Of a stretch of DNA of 14,094 nucleotides, positions 4,595 to 12,393 are shown piece by piece (the first letter of the stretch is position 1; the number at the start of each line of letters is the position of its first letter). The notes beneath the pieces were generated by a model that saw only the letters and a list, made by a program, of their open reading frames with translations, was not told the DNA's origin and searched no databases. Position numbers and translations under genes: made by a program. Location: contig JAUXAI010000032.1 in assembly GCA_030619985.1 (NCBI GenBank), positions 1 through 14,094 on the forward strand. The letters are read 5' to 3'. Source of the stretch: a bacterium. GTDB lineage: Bacteria > UBP18 > UBA7526.

Positions 4595-4669
4595 GTTCGT
4601 TTACGGTTGACCCGTCCCGATATCCATCGGGACTGTTTACCGTTAACCGTACACCGTAAACTGTTAACC
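4595..4669. repeat. 75-base hairpin-bearing repeat, intact copy
   Basis: Fills nearly the whole gap between the PP-loop gene and pncA. It is built from GTTTACGGTT-type units in both orientations (for example TTTACGGTTGACC at the left and ACCGTACACCGTAAACTG at the right) around a perfect hairpin, GTCCCGAT-ATCC-ATCGGGAC at 4614-4633. A second copy with an insertion lies at 5674-5858. No transposase is present. Confidence 0.85.
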
Positions 4670-4673
4670 TCTT

Positions 4674-5654
4674 TTAGATTCGTTTGACTCCCAACTCAGT
4701 AGCATCGACTGGAGTGACGATTATAAATTCAACCTCTCCCTCTGGTAATCTCTTATAATTTACTTTTACCTTAGGGAATTCCTTTCCATCGCTATAGCGT
4801 GTACAGAGAGAAGCAGCCTCTTCTAAAGTCTTTTCATTCAACGTTCCCCGAACAATGGCTAAAGGCCCTTTATGTCCTATCACATTAAAGGAGGTATCCC
4901 CTTCCTTACTGAGAGACCTTAGTCTCTTATTCTCCTCCTTATTCCTTCCAATTACAATCTTTAATCCCGTTGAAGACCTGAAGTGCCTTCCCAGTTTGAG
5001 AAGTAAAATATTATCTAAGCTATATTCATTATGCTCTAAGAGGTCTTTTAGGCGCCTGGAAAAGATAGCGTCTGTTAAAAGGCAACCACCTGCTGGAGTA
5101 CTATACTTTCTTAAATTATATCTCCTAGCTAATCCCAGTTGGCCCTTTCTGCTCTTTCCAGAAAGGGCCAATAATTTCTCTCTATTAATCGATCCTCTTT
5201 TTTCTGGATCTGTAATTGGTAGGAGTTTTGCAGAAAGGGGTCTTAAGAGTTTTCCCGGGATATCTGCTCTCTTTGCTATGGCTTCCAGGATTTGCTTATT
5301 CTGGGATCTCGGCCTCTGTCCCACCACCTCTCCTGTAATGATGAAAGAGGCCTTTACTTTTTCCATTAACTCCTTTGCCTTCTTGGCCATCAGAATGTGA
5401 CAGTCGATACAGGGGTTCATATTCTTCCCATAGCCATATCTGGGATTCTTAACGATCTCTAATATCTCGCTTGATACATCTCTGATGTAGAGTTTGATTC
5501 CCAGTTCCTCTGCTGCCTCTTTAGCATTTTCTGCACCAAAAAAGAGAGAAGTAAAGCTTACTCCCTCAACCTCAATCTCCTGCTCCTGAATTAGTTTAAC
5601 CGCCAAAGAACTATCCAGGCCACCAGATAGCAAAGCCAGAGCCTTCACTGCCAT
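4674..5654 (-). CDS. PP-loop ATPase, tRNA thiolation-like, with NFACT-R-like C terminus
   Basis: 326 residues from the ATG at 5654. An in-frame start at 5702 would add 16 residues read entirely from the repeat; AAGGAT eight bases before 5654 decides for the shorter form. The N-terminal PP-loop ALLSGGLDSSLAVK (7-20) binds ATP for adenylation of a substrate, as in MnmA and ThiI. NPCIDCH (80-86, C82/C85) and TPAGGCLLTD (186-195, C191) supply cysteines placed like those of sulfur-carrying tRNA thiolases. The C-terminal stretch IVIGRNKEENKRL (233-245) followed by GHKGPLAIVRG (260-270) resembles the DUF814/NFACT-R RNA-binding module. It is often annotated as ThiI- or TrmU-like in thermophiles and anaerobes. 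The direct neighbour is a true mnmA, so this protein probably thiolates another tRNA position or a different substrate. The exact product is unknown. Confidence 0.75.
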   Translation of the reverse strand: MAVKALALLSGGLDSSLAVKLIQEQEIEVEGVSFTSLFFGAENAKEAAEELGIKLYIRDVSSEILEIVKNPRYGYGKNMNPCIDCHILMAKKAKELMEKVKASFIITGEVVGQRPRSQNKQILEAIAKRADIPGKLLRPLSAKLLPITDPEKRGSINREKLLALSGKSRKGQLGLARRYNLRKYSTPAGGCLLTDAIFSRRLKDLLEHNEYSLDNILLLKLGRHFRSSTGLKIVIGRNKEENKRLRSLSKEGDTSFNVIGHKGPLAIVRGTLNEKTLEEAASLCTRYSDGKEFPKVKVNYKRLPEGEVEFIIVTPVDATELGVKRI

Positions 5655-5673
5655 ACTAAAATCCTTATTAGAA

Positions 5674-5858
5674 GTTCGTTTACGGTTGACCCGTCCCGAC
5701 ATTCGTCGGGACTGTTTACCCCATTAGAAATCCTTTTCATAGGATTTTACTCTTCAGGCGTTAGTATCTGTTTATTTCAAAAAATATATCCTTATGAGTA
5801 TATCTGTTGATTTTTCTAACGGGGTTTACCGTTAACCGTACACCGTAAACTGTTAACC
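5674..5858. repeat. Second copy of the 75-base repeat, interrupted by an insertion
   Basis: The left half (5674-5720) and right half (5831-5858) match the intact copy at 4595-4669. Its hairpin is GTCCCGAC-ATTC-GTCGGGAC, with a paired change (T-A to C-G) against the intact copy. Removing the insertion and one duplicated GTTTACC restores exactly 75 bases. Together the elements occupy almost the entire gap between mnmA and the PP-loop gene. Confidence 0.85.
5721..5823. mobile_element. 103-base non-autonomous inserted element (MITE-like)
   Basis: Inserted in the 75-base repeat and flanked by GTTTACC direct repeats at 5714-5720 and 5824-5830, a seven-base target duplication. The ends form imperfect inverted repeats: CCATTAGAAA on the left and, reversed, CCCGTTAGAAA on the right. 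Internal AAATCCTTTTCATAGGATTT (5728-5747) can fold as a hairpin. It has no coding capacity, so a transposase elsewhere in the genome would be needed. Confidence 0.7.
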
Positions 5859-5863
5859 CCATA

Positions 5864-6892
5864 TTAGCAGATCCAGCCCCCACCAAGGACAATATCCTTA
5901 TCATAGAAGACTACCGCTTGTCCGGGAGTAATCGCCCTCTGGGGTCTCTCAAACTTTACTTTCACTCTACTGATAGATAGAGGAGTAATTAAAGCATCGG
6001 CTACTCTATACTGATACCTTATCTTTGCTCTTACCTTTATGGGCTTCTTTAATCTATCGATAGCGACCCAGTTAACATCCCTTGCTATTAGTTCATCCTT
6101 GAGTATCTCTTTCTCACTTCCCACAACAATGACATCTCTACCGCTATCAATGGCTATAACATATAGAGGCTTGCCAGTGGCAATCCCCAAGCCCCTCCTC
6201 TGGCCGATGGTATAGAAGGCGATCCCCTTATGCCTCCCCAAGATCTTCTCTTTCCTATCAACAATCAACCCTTCCTTTAATCTATTCGTGCTCATCCGTG
6301 TCTTCAAAAATCCGTGATAATCCGTGTTCAGAACGAAGCATATCTCCTGGCTGGCCGGTCTATTATGAATTCCCAGTTCCTTTGCTTTCTCTTTAACCTC
6401 TTCTTTAGTGAGGTTCGCTAAAGGGAATAGAGTATGCTCGAGTTGCTTTTGATCCAGACCACACAGGACATAGGACTGGTCCTTCTTCTTATCTCTCCCC
6501 TTCTTTAATAAATACCTCTTTCTTTTTTTATTGTAGGCTACTTTGGCATAGTGGCCGGTGGCGATATAATCTGCTTTTAGCTCTTTTGCTTTCTTCAGGA
6601 GAGCCTTAAACTTTATCTTCTTATTACAGACAACGCAGGGGTTAGGAGTACGGCCCTTAGAATATTCTCTCACAAAGTAGTCGATTACCTTCTTCTCAAA
6701 CTCTCTCTTGAGATTGAGAGAGTAAAAGGGGATGTCTAACTTAGAGGCCATGCTTCTGGCATCTTCTTTGGTATCCAGAGCACAGCCCAGATTGAGATGG
6801 ATTCCGATGACCTCATATCTCTCCTTTAAGAGAGAAGCGGCCACAGAGGAGTCGACCCCTCCGCTCATCCCGATCAAGACTTTCTTTTTCAT
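5864..6892 (-). CDS. mnmA: tRNA-specific 2-thiouridylase
   Basis: 342 residues; activates U34 of Lys, Glu and Gln tRNAs with ATP and inserts sulfur relayed from IscS. Seen: PP-loop GMSGGVDSSVAASLL (8-22), NPCVVCNKKIKF (84-95) with catalytic C89, ATGHYAKV (111-118), DQSYVLCGL (138-146), RPASQEICFV (178-187) with the persulfide-carrying C185, and FYTIGQRRGLGIATG (226-240). Residues 189-204 (NTDYHGFLKTRMSTNR) are read from sequence matching the ACACGGAT-type mini-repeats found between genes here. The segment is nevertheless in frame and resembles the usual DYRGFLK-like stretch of the family. The ATG overlaps the stop codon of the radical SAM gene (ATGA) and has no real ribosome site, because CACAG-type repeats occupy the position; coupled translation is likely. 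iscS lies upstream in the same gene string. Confidence 0.95.
   Translation of the reverse strand: MKKKVLIGMSGGVDSSVAASLLKERYEVIGIHLNLGCALDTKEDARSMASKLDIPFYSLNLKREFEKKVIDYFVREYSKGRTPNPCVVCNKKIKFKALLKKAKELKADYIATGHYAKVAYNKKRKRYLLKKGRDKKKDQSYVLCGLDQKQLEHTLFPLANLTKEEVKEKAKELGIHNRPASQEICFVLNTDYHGFLKTRMSTNRLKEGLIVDRKEKILGRHKGIAFYTIGQRRGLGIATGKPLYVIAIDSGRDVIVVGSEKEILKDELIARDVNWVAIDRLKKPIKVRAKIRYQYRVADALITPLSISRVKVKFERPQRAITPGQAVVFYDKDIVLGGGWIC
6284..6329. repeat. Mini-repeat of the ACACGGAT type inside mnmA
   Basis: On the minus strand this reads AACACGGATTATCACGGATT, then GACACGGATGAGCACGAAT. The same words (ACACGGATCTACACGGAT, GACACGAAT) occur in the intergenic array at 13619-13746. It encodes residues 189-204 of MnmA without breaking the frame. 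Confidence 0.6.
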
Positions 6893-8085
6893 CTCTGTGT
6901 CTTCTGTGGTTTTTTCTGTGTCCTCTGTGGTTCCCAGACCCCAGGAATTCTCGCCCCGCAGTACTTACACCTTCCCTCTATCTTACCTCTGGTAAAAGCA
7001 TAGGAGAGGTTATTCCTCAAGACATGGAACCCAACTCTCTGAATCAAGAGCCTTCTACACTTGGGACAGTAGGTATTCTCTCCTCCATGCCCGGGAACAT
7101 TCCCGATATAGACATACTTCAGGCCCTCTTCCCGAGCAATCCTCTTCGCCATCTCTAAGGTCTTTACCGGCGTGGGAGACAGGTTCCTCATCTTATACTG
7201 GGGCCAGAAACGAGAGAAGTGAATAGGAACCTCTCTCCCTAAATTCTCAACAATCCACTTGCACATCTTTCTAATCTCTTCTGGACTATCGTTCTTGGTA
7301 GGGATGATGAGATTTGTAATCTCAGTATGAATCCCCTCTTCCTTTAGGATCTTTAGGGTGTGCAGCACTGGCTCTAAGGTAGCATCGGTGAGCTCCTGAT
7401 AGAATTCATCACTAAATCCCTTTAGATCGATATTGGCGGCATCCAGATATTTGCAGATTTCTCTTAATGGTTCTTCATTGATGTAGCCTGCAGAGTGCAT
7501 GACATTCATGATTCCGGATTCCTTGGCCAGTTTTGCTGTCTCCAGCATATACTCATAGAAGATGGTGGGCTCGGTATAGGTATAGGCGATGGAGGGACAG
7601 CCACTCCTTTTTGCCATTTCCACTACATCCTTAGGGGGAAGATAGTAGTTATTCGTCTCCTCTGGAGGGAGCTGGGAGATGGTCCAGTTCTGGCAGAACT
7701 TACACTTCAGATTACAACCCGCAGTAGCGATGGAAAAGGACCTCGTTCCGGGAAGGACATGGAATAAGGGCTTCTTCTCTATGGGGTCAGCATGGACGGC
7801 ACAGGGAAGGCCATAGACCATGGTATAGAGCCTTCCATTCCTATTCTCTCTCGCCCTACACTCTCCCCTCTCTCCAGGCCTAAGGACGCATCTCCTGGGA
7901 CAGAGCTCACACAAGACCAATTCCTTACCCAGGGACCTCCAGTACATAGCAAGGTGAGGGATGACCTCTTTTGCCCTGGGAGTTGCTCCCGTCCTGGGAA
8001 TCTCACTTCGGGCATTTTTGATCCCTAAGCTTAAAGCCAATCCTAAAAGAAGGATGATGAAAAGTAAGATTGAGAATCTTTTCAT
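6889..8085 (-). CDS. amrS: AmmeMemoRadiSam-type radical SAM protein with N-terminal membrane anchor
   Basis: 398 residues. Radical SAM motif C124-NLK-C128-KF-C131 binds the [4Fe-4S] cluster that cleaves S-adenosylmethionine. An upstream cysteine cluster (C59, C62, C66, C76 in CELCPRRCVLRPGERGEC) and phrases such as YTYTEPTIFYEY, DLKGFSDEFY, IPTKNDS and HFSRFWPQYK are characteristic of the AmmeMemoRadiSam/PflA-like family, whose substrate is still poorly known. C340/C343 and C373/C376 form a C-terminal zinc-ribbon or rubredoxin-like module. Residues 5-22 are a hydrophobic segment after MKR, a signal anchor or signal peptide, which is odd for an oxygen-sensitive Fe-S enzyme. The last 14 residues (EPQRTQKKPQKTQR) come from a CCACAGAGGACACAG-type repeat. 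A CcdA/TauE-like protein is encoded directly upstream. AAAGGTG in the inserted element provides the ribosome site. The partner Memo and AMMECR1 genes are not in this window. Confidence 0.88.
   Translation of the reverse strand: MKRFSILLFIILLLGLALSLGIKNARSEIPRTGATPRAKEVIPHLAMYWRSLGKELVLCELCPRRCVLRPGERGECRARENRNGRLYTMVYGLPCAVHADPIEKKPLFHVLPGTRSFSIATAGCNLKCKFCQNWTISQLPPEETNNYYLPPKDVVEMAKRSGCPSIAYTYTEPTIFYEYMLETAKLAKESGIMNVMHSAGYINEEPLREICKYLDAANIDLKGFSDEFYQELTDATLEPVLHTLKILKEEGIHTEITNLIIPTKNDSPEEIRKMCKWIVENLGREVPIHFSRFWPQYKMRNLSPTPVKTLEMAKRIAREEGLKYVYIGNVPGHGGENTYCPKCRRLLIQRVGFHVLRNNLSYAFTRGKIEGRCKYCGARIPGVWEPQRTQKKPQKTQR
6893..6938. repeat. CACAGAGG-type mini-repeat at the end of amrS and before mnmA
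   Basis: The plus strand reads CTGTGTCTTCTGTGG and, after a T-rich stretch, CTGTGTCCTCTGTGG, a tandem pair with a 24-base period. It codes for the C-terminal tail of the radical SAM protein and occupies the ribosome-binding region of mnmA. A related copy (CTGCGTCCTCTGTGG) lies beyond the bactofilin gene near 12365-12379. Confidence 0.75.
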
Positions 8086-8223
8086 CCCGCACCTTTTTTA
8101 TGATTCACCCCGCTCCTTCTTCTCTCCAAATCCCCGACTGTATGCAAGGAAGGGGCGGGGTTCACAAGACTTTTTCTTTTGTTTTTTAAAAGATAAATAT
8201 AAAACACAGTAAAAGGTGCGGGA
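8085..8223. mobile_element. 139-base MITE-like element between the CcdA-like gene and amrS
   Basis: Perfect terminal inverted repeats, TCCCGCACCTTTT (8085-8097) and AAAAGGTGCGGGA (8211-8223), bound the element, with TTCA direct repeats outside (8081-8084 and 8224-8227). Inside is a second inverted repeat, ACCCCGCTCCTTC (8107-8119) against GAAGGGGCGGGGT (8149-8161), with 12 of 13 pairs. There is no open reading frame of note. The direct repeat carries the stop codon of the upstream gene on one side and lies in the start codon of amrS on the other. The minus-strand TIR supplies AAAGGTG six bases before the amrS ATG. Confidence 0.75.
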
Positions 8224-8224
8224 T

Positions 8225-8875
8225 TCATCTAAAGACTCCTAGAATGAGACGGATACCAAAATAGATTAAGAAGCAACCACAGAGGCGACTGAAGGTCTGA
8301 TAGAAGATCGGTTTTAAGGATAGGAGCTTTCCCAAGCTTCCGGCAACTAAAGCAAGGATAATTAAAGGAGAGATGACCGTCCCCAGGCCAAAGGAGAGAC
8401 CCCAGAAGGCGCCAACAAAGGGCCCCTTGGCCAATCCAGCGATGGTGGTCAAAGCCCCAAGTAATGGCAAACAGGGGGAAACGCCGATTAATATGCCAAG
8501 TAAAATCATGCTCTTTGCACTTTTCTCAATCGTCTCTTTATGTAGTAGGCGGCAGAAGGGAAACCTTGTCCTACCAAGTATCATAATCATTCCCAATAAA
8601 AGGACGAATATTCCAGCCCCTAAGTACTTTATAAGATTAAACTTTGGAGAAGATATTACCTCTGTTAAGAAATAACCGATGCTACTTGCTAGTAAGCCTA
8701 AGAGTCCATATATCACTACTCGAGAGGCAGAAAAGATTAGAATATCCTTCAATCCCCCAAGCCAGCTTCTCTTACTCCCCGCGATGTAAGGGAAGAGAAT
8801 TGGTCCGCAGAAGGCGAGGCAGGGCCCGAGACCCATAAAGAGGCCGGTAATGAACAAGGCAGTATGCTCTTCCAT
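8225..8875 (-). CDS. CcdA/TauE-SafE-like integral membrane protein
   Basis: 216 residues with about six hydrophobic segments (roughly 5-30, 42-68, 80-100, 122-147, 152-180, 193-213). Two cysteine-bearing, proline-rich motifs stand in the first and fourth segments: GLGPCLAFCGPILFPYIAGS (C19, C23) and GVSPCLPLLGAL (C135). These resemble the DsbD/CcdA transmembrane redox domain, which passes electrons from cytoplasmic thioredoxin across the membrane; databases often label this branch 'sulfite exporter TauE/SafE'. The extra C23 next to the GPC motif differs from plain CcdA. It starts within the stop codon of nadA (TAATG, one-base overlap). Lying directly before a membrane-anchored radical SAM protein, it might serve that protein with reducing power, but this is a guess. 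The transported species is unknown. Confidence 0.75.
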   Translation of the reverse strand: MEEHTALFITGLFMGLGPCLAFCGPILFPYIAGSKRSWLGGLKDILIFSASRVVIYGLLGLLASSIGYFLTEVISSPKFNLIKYLGAGIFVLLLGMIMILGRTRFPFCRLLHKETIEKSAKSMILLGILIGVSPCLPLLGALTTIAGLAKGPFVGAFWGLSFGLGTVISPLIILALVAGSLGKLLSLKPIFYQTFSRLCGCFLIYFGIRLILGVFR

Positions 8876-12167: not shown

Positions 12168-12283
12168 AAAATAACGGCGCGCTTCGCTCTCCGCCGTCTT
12201 TTACTTATTCAAGTTTCGATAGCTTAAAATAACGGCGCGCTTCGCTCTCCGCCGTCTTTTGCTTATTGAAGTTCCGATGCCTC
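12168..12283. repeat. 58-base tandem repeat with GC-rich hairpins, two copies
   Basis: Copies at 12168-12225 and 12226-12283 differ at 6 of 58 positions. Each holds an ACGGCG ... CGCCGT stem (12174-12179/12192-12197 and 12232-12237/12250-12255) with a 12-base loop GCGCTTCGC-type core. On the minus strand the first copy's stem is followed by TTATTTTTTGG, and on the plus strand by CTTTT, so each may act as a terminator in either direction. Confidence 0.85.
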
Positions 12284-12339: not shown

Positions 12340-12393
12340 ATTTCTGCGATCTCTGCGATTTTCTCTGCGTCCTCTGTGGTTGCAATTCGTGTC
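12340..12393. repeat. CTGCGATCTCTGCG / CTCTGTGG mini-repeats beyond the bactofilin gene
   Basis: The plus strand shows TCTGCGATCTCTGCGATT, CTCTGCGTCCTCTGTGG and AATTCGTGTCTC in a row, ending exactly at the bactofilin stop codon. The words are shared with the arrays at 6893-6938 and 13619-13746. Confidence 0.65.

Follow-up and report, generated by a model that had tools for sequence, protein, structure and literature searches.

How two coupled genes can be separated by an insertion without apparent loss to either is the question raised by one junction in the window, which is the whole stretch of 14,094 nucleotides that was analysed. Both genes lie on the minus strand: upstream is a CcdA/DsbD-like membrane gene (8225..8875; PF13386, E 1e-20) with its TGA stop at 8225-8227, and downstream is amrS (6889..8085; TIGR04337, E 2e-117), which encodes an AmmeMemoRadiSam radical SAM enzyme and starts with the ATG at 8083..8085. 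The preferred reading, to which we assign a probability of about 60%, is that the DNA in between is a non-autonomous MITE of two nested layers, that its parent is a transposon of 270-370 bp with one UPF0213-type GIY-YIG gene, and that the insertion at the start codon keeps the two genes coupled. Such a case would offer a natural example of a separation that is tolerated, together with a testable mechanism, a hairpin that is opened by the ribosome.

The nested element between the CcdA-like gene and amrS

Window positions 8081-8227 consist of TTCA (8081-8084), a 139-bp element that reads TCCCGCACCTTTT ... AAAAGGTGCGGGA (8085-8223, minus strand), and a second TTCA (8224-8227). In gene direction, the upstream terminal inverted repeat is TCCCGCACCTTTT (8211..8223, minus strand) and the downstream one is AAAAGGTGCGGGA (8085..8097, minus strand), and the two are perfect over 13 bp. 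The stop codon (TGA) of the CcdA-like gene falls within the second TTCA, and the first, read on the minus strand together with position 8085, gives ATGAA, the start of amrS; the A of this ATG is the last base of the element. CACCTTT at 8090-8096 is AAAGGTG on the minus strand, a Shine-Dalgarno-like sequence that comes from the element end, lies four bases upstream of the amrS ATG and is kept in other start-codon copies. The element with its perfect 13-base ends and TTCA duplications had already been described in the initial annotation, and the window sequence as well as the repeat counts given below agree with that description.

It had also been proposed that removal of the element and one TTCA fuses the two genes to ATGA, and this is the actual junction in two relatives without the element. 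In a sister genome (G001), whose CcdA-like gene is 98% identical, the junction is GTCTTAGGATGAAGAAG, and in a family-level relative (G003) it is TTTCAATGAGGAG, in both cases an ATGA overlap; the alignment gap of -4 at the locus in both genomes corresponds to the missing element plus one copy of the 4-bp duplication. The element is absent from the locus also in G002 and G004, but there a short TAA-N-ATG spacer is found. A further exact empty site is seen when the rplO copies of G001 and of G000, the 1.25-Mb genome of the uncultured bacterium, are compared with G002. As a separate observation, the DNA identity to G001 (L062; window 6889-8875) shifts at the element, with 97% for the CcdA-like gene and 86% for amrS, which could reflect a recombination breakpoint at this position or a faster evolution of amrS.

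The 139-bp element is composite. An element of the same family, 53 bp in length (8108..8160, minus strand) and flanked by its own TTCA duplications (8104..8107 and 8161..8164), is nested in an 82-bp outer element, and 82 + 53 + 4 gives the 139 bp. The un-nested 82-bp form is present at G000:C43:5986, homologous 52-53-bp copies of the inner element are found in G000 and G002, and the inner element is likewise inserted at an RTGAA-like site.

Other repeats were noticed in the window. A 35-mer (GTTTACCGTTAACCGTACACC...) is repeated at 100% (4635-4669 and 5824-5858) and a 47-mer at 94% (4595-4641 and 5674-5720), both around the gene at 4674-5702. A CTCTGTGGTT-type repeat is found at 6891-6932 and 12340-12381, and the first of these copies overlies the 3' end of amrS, where it encodes the C-terminal tail TQKKPQKTQR. 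At 12168-12283, within an intergenic region, there are two tandem 58-bp copies that are 90% identical.

Target sites and proposed coupling at the rebuilt start

About 50 paired copies are found in G000, mostly of 48-139 bp. Since the exact end TCCCGCACCTTTT occurs 11 times in that genome and its reversed control not once, and since YCCCGCACCT occurs 92 times against 2 for its reversed control, the element ends are not due to chance. From three genomes, 94 candidate copies, about half of them in G000, were first paired and then curated; the terminal repeats match at 11-13 of 13 positions in most copies, and the further copies that the initial annotation had called for thus exist by the dozen, with matching ends and 4-bp duplications. 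Several candidates were rejected: G000:C42:7802, which is coding sequence for GGAGFIG, a motif of a sugar epimerase/dehydratase, G000:C43:10936, perfect hairpins of 23-26 bp without a duplication, and the right ends at G000:C23 and C77, which are tRNA-Ser-like sequence adjoining a GIY-YIG gene. GIY-YIG genes adjoin such tRNA-Ser-like sequence at G000:C23:1-280, at G000:C77 near 9760 and in G004:C31 (L248, L256 and L251), and the 5' end of the latter sequence resembles an element end by chance.

The duplications are exact in 43 of the 50 start-type copies, and because their sequence varies (TGAA, TCAA, TGAG or TAAA in gene direction) they are real duplications and not parts of the element. An R precedes the left TGAA or TGAG in 42 of the 50. 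The target is RTGAA, usually at the start codon of a gene, where the last base of the element and the duplicated TGAA re-form RTG, and the inverted end puts AAGGTG or AAGGAGG about four bases before this codon (RadA, Fmt, EF-Ts, L15, L17 and others). That these RTG codons are the true gene starts follows from NCBIfam alignments, which begin at residues 1-7 in RadA, Fmt, GalT, LpxD, EF-Ts, L15, L17 and Apt (first positions in protein/profile: RadA 2/5, Fmt 1/1, EF-Ts 1/2, L15 2/1, L17 2/3, Apt 2/7). As in the window, the upstream TGA lies inside the duplication in 19 listed copies from the three genomes, the subset with ATGA or GTGA overlaps, and in the remaining listed copies there is a TGATG overlap, a short gap or no ORF close by on the upstream side. 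The initial annotation had seen a single insertion into an ATGA overlap, and of this the location stands, but the copy is two elements, one within the other, and the target is wider, including RTGAA start codons generally.

A minority class has the duplication TTGA and is sited on TTGAC -35 boxes: a -10 match (at least 4 of 6) is present at exactly 17 bp in 15 of the 17 copies; among random TTGA sites, the share is 6%. Certain subfamilies have members in both classes. The pattern of start codons and -35 boxes could also result from survivorship, if insertion at TSAA were random and only the copies that spare genes remained, and we regard this as not far from an even bet. The RTSAA sites of the window are mostly coding (81 of 95), so that insertion there would disrupt genes, and the element ends happen to suit starts and -35 boxes. 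On the other side, starts make up 3 of the 14 non-coding target-like sites in the window, a small background sample, yet 32 of the 47 curated G000 copies are of the start type (29 of these with at least 50 codons), and the -10 spacing of the TTGA copies also speaks against survivorship, with counts that are small and copies that are in part orthologous.

The question of coupling leads to the fold of the element, which as a single strand is much stronger than in shuffled sequences (z -5 as RNA, -5.8 as DNA). The 3' arm, which contains the ribosome site, is complementary to the 5' arm, which starts one base past the upstream TGA. In ensemble calculations with 29 G000 copies as isolated RNA, the median cost to open the ribosome site and the start is 18.8 kcal/mol; it drops to a median of 5.8 when the first 13 element bases are kept open, as a terminating ribosome would do, and the median for ordinary starts of the window is 6.1 kcal/mol. 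For the window copy, the cost decreases from 18.8 to 1.5 kcal/mol when the 5' arm is occupied. A stronger Shine-Dalgarno sequence was found on the 3' than on the 5' arm in 20 versus 11 of the 50 copies, which is not significant (P 0.08).

Tight translational coupling is known for ATGA gene pairs (PMC6728339). The proposed sequence of events is that insertion takes place between the R and the TSAA with a 4-bp duplication; with TGAA in a start codon, the left copy would keep the upstream stop, the terminal R and the right TGAA would re-form the start, and the inverted end would set AAGGTG about four bases upstream of it. In the mRNA, the two ends would pair, and the stem would hide the ribosome site and the start until a ribosome that terminates on the upstream TGA occupies the 5' arm and thereby releases the 3' arm for re-initiation. 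An insertion with such a hairpin could separate two genes and nevertheless keep their translation coupled. The calculated opening costs support, but do not prove, this role of the stem as a gate opened by the ribosome. The ribosome site assigned to the element in the initial annotation is thus retained with its AAAGGTG, but it is computed to be locked in the hairpin and is not simply an independent site; it probably works only during translation of the upstream gene.

It is less likely, though to be taken seriously, that translation is not coupled by the hairpin at all, and that the insertion simply lowers amrS expression or leaves it unchanged. Some start-type copies have no long upstream ORF that ends nearby, and coupling cannot apply to these. 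However, occupation of the 5' arm brings the opening cost back to the level of ordinary starts, and the essential genes for L15, L17 and EF-Ts have the element at their start, which means that translation must be possible there.

GIY-YIG genes in longer copies and in other bacteria

The copies of 272-374 bp carry one gene only, which encodes a GIY-YIG nuclease. The 374-bp copy in G002 (C35:39164-39537) combines the 13-bp ends with an intact GIY-YIG ORF, and 272-bp copies with an intact ORF are present in G000 (C46) and G002 (C30). Intact copies with both ends are only a few; of the four bases of the duplication, the 374-bp copy retains three, and an additional C is present in the 272-bp copy. 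The larger copies match PF01541 (E 3e-16, 7e-11 and 1e-11) with aligned Y-YIG, R, H and E positions, and the ORF-bearing copies of the genus belong to two divergent GIY-YIG types that are 37% identical. Shorter copies are connected to these: a 130-bp copy (G000:C48) carries the N-terminal half of the GIY-YIG gene (E 5e-10), and 86-bp copies match the 374-bp copy at its 3' end over 58 bp at 88-90%. In the longer MITEs, including the window copy, a stretch at element positions 17-55 resembles the GIY-YIG start (best E 0.003). In the window this stretch (8169..8207, minus strand) reads VFYIYLLKNKRKS as compared to MYHVYLLKSKKNS; taken alone, its E of 0.025 is within the shuffle range (20.4 versus 21.2 bits), and it is its position and frame, common to other copies, that make it a probable remnant of the start of the GIY-YIG gene. 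By every sequence feature tested, i.e. inverted ends, duplication, small multi-copy size and a parent with the same ends, the window element is a MITE.

GIY-YIG relatives were found in 108 of the 386 genomes searched, and 25 of 68 loci lie inside inverted repeats that score at least 12; among 188 shifted controls there is a single such case, which is a run of N. Several of these loci share the end type (CCCCGCACCT, CCCAGCACC). Two genomes of unrelated families have such elements, G091 with a clean 277-bp GIY-YIG element that has perfect TGAA duplications and lies before a GTG start, and G293 with elements of 300-304 bp. The composite motif RTGAAYCCMGCNCC occurs in 12 of 13 genomes searched, with a reversed control near zero, and is enriched in unrelated families (14 in G213 and 11 in G293, controls zero). 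In other families and in distant members of the same family, MITE copies lie where Ugd-, AroQ- and L23-like ORFs begin; these ORFs were named by eye from the N-terminal sequence. A search of viral contigs for relatives of the G293 GIY-YIG protein found none.

It has also been observed that UPF0213-like GIY-YIG genes are framed by inverted common palindromes of other types (GTCATTCCCGTGAAAACGGGAATCCA, GTCATTGCGAGCGTAGCGAAGCAA; L276, L286, L288, L269, L271 and L297), as well as at L359 443-820 (Shinella) and at L362 380-886 (Azospirillum lipoferum, between sufB and sufC). The GIY-YIG nuclease may be the mover of those palindromes.

To our knowledge, GIY-YIG enzymes are not among the established transposase types, and we know of no precedent for movement by a GIY-YIG protein alone. 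The cuts made by the GIY-YIG homing enzymes that have been characterised have 2-nt overhangs, which leaves the 4-bp duplications unexplained, and several DDE families typically have 4-bp duplications and short inverted ends. An ordinary transposase (DDE or HUH) that is missing from the assemblies, which are 75-93% complete, could move the MITEs, and the GIY-YIG protein could be a passenger or a maturation factor. We consider this less likely, though a real possibility: the lists of ends from the incomplete genomes G000 and G002 contain no inward-facing pair of IS size beyond neighbouring small copies, and GIY-YIG is the sole gene in the ORF-bearing copies, in two divergent types within the genus and in unrelated families. 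From these sequences we infer that the GIY-YIG nuclease drives the movement of the element. A non-mobile regulatory hairpin that evolved in place (attenuator, thermometer or terminator) would agree with the strong fold (z -5) at starts, but it is refuted by the exact empty sites and has further against it the variable duplications, the nesting, common interiors at unrelated genes and an Rfam search of the element without a match.

Beyond this locus, very small elements in unrelated bacteria are probably moved by the GIY-YIG protein. More tentatively, and with slightly less than even confidence, a widespread class of minimal transposons can be envisaged in which a GIY-YIG protein of 80-90 residues is the transposase and the ends are shaped to rebuild signals and keep coupling. 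This class would comprise elements of about 270-370 bp with inverted ends of the CCC(C/A)GCNCC type and a 4-bp duplication, which in several bacterial families invade start codons as well as -35 boxes. As part of the same tentative proposal, UPF0213 genes framed by other palindromes may likewise move those palindromes. If true, many abundant UPF0213 GIY-YIG genes of unknown function would obtain a role, and in such genomes a start codon or an intergenic hairpin could be the end of a transposon.

Comparison with known mobile elements

Known bacterial MITEs (Correia/NEMIS, MITEAba12, QMITE1 and others; PMC10969869) are likewise short and multi-copy, have inverted ends and a target duplication, lie near gene starts and can supply expression signals. 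However, their parents are DDE-type insertion sequences or unknown, and the signals they supply are mainly promoters, whereas here the likely parent bears a GIY-YIG gene, insertion is at the start codon, and the end gives the Shine-Dalgarno site as well as the first base of the start codon. The review of these MITEs (PMC10969869) contains no mention of start codons, ribosome binding or GIY-YIG. Free-standing GIY-YIG homing endonucleases, such as the T4 Seg enzymes and I-TevI relatives, resemble the longer copies in having a small GIY-YIG gene between genes, but they have one cognate site, depend on homologous repair and have neither inverted ends nor duplications, whereas here many unrelated sites are occupied, each with a 4-bp duplication, and non-autonomous derivatives exist, so that the elements do not behave as homing genes.

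The UPF0213 proteins 1ZG2 and 1YWL (PDB) are by sequence the closest solved relatives of the protein of the 374-bp element; they are represented by structures only, and as far as we know, no mobile function has been assigned to them. In REP/RAYT systems, too, palindromes are present in many copies, and a larger copy has a small enzyme gene. The enzymes of these systems, the RAYTs, are of the tyrosine (Y1/HUH) type, recognise GTAG/GGAG and make no target duplication, in contrast to the GIY-YIG gene, the inverted ends and the TSAA duplication found here, where the flanks are TGAA/TCAA and not GTAG. The BOX elements of pneumococci (PMC3049150) are similar as repeats that give start or stop codons to neighbouring ORFs, but in the parts of that report considered here, the BOX-encoded ORFs are without good Shine-Dalgarno candidates and the elements are not reported at native start codons. 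A literature search with limited journal coverage, which can give only weak evidence of novelty, retrieved no bacterial GIY-YIG elements with inverted ends and no MITEs that target start codons. As judged from the sequences, the target, the design of the ends and the apparent GIY-YIG parent set the element apart from the MITEs in the searchable literature, and there is a substantial chance that the parent represents a new class of transposon.
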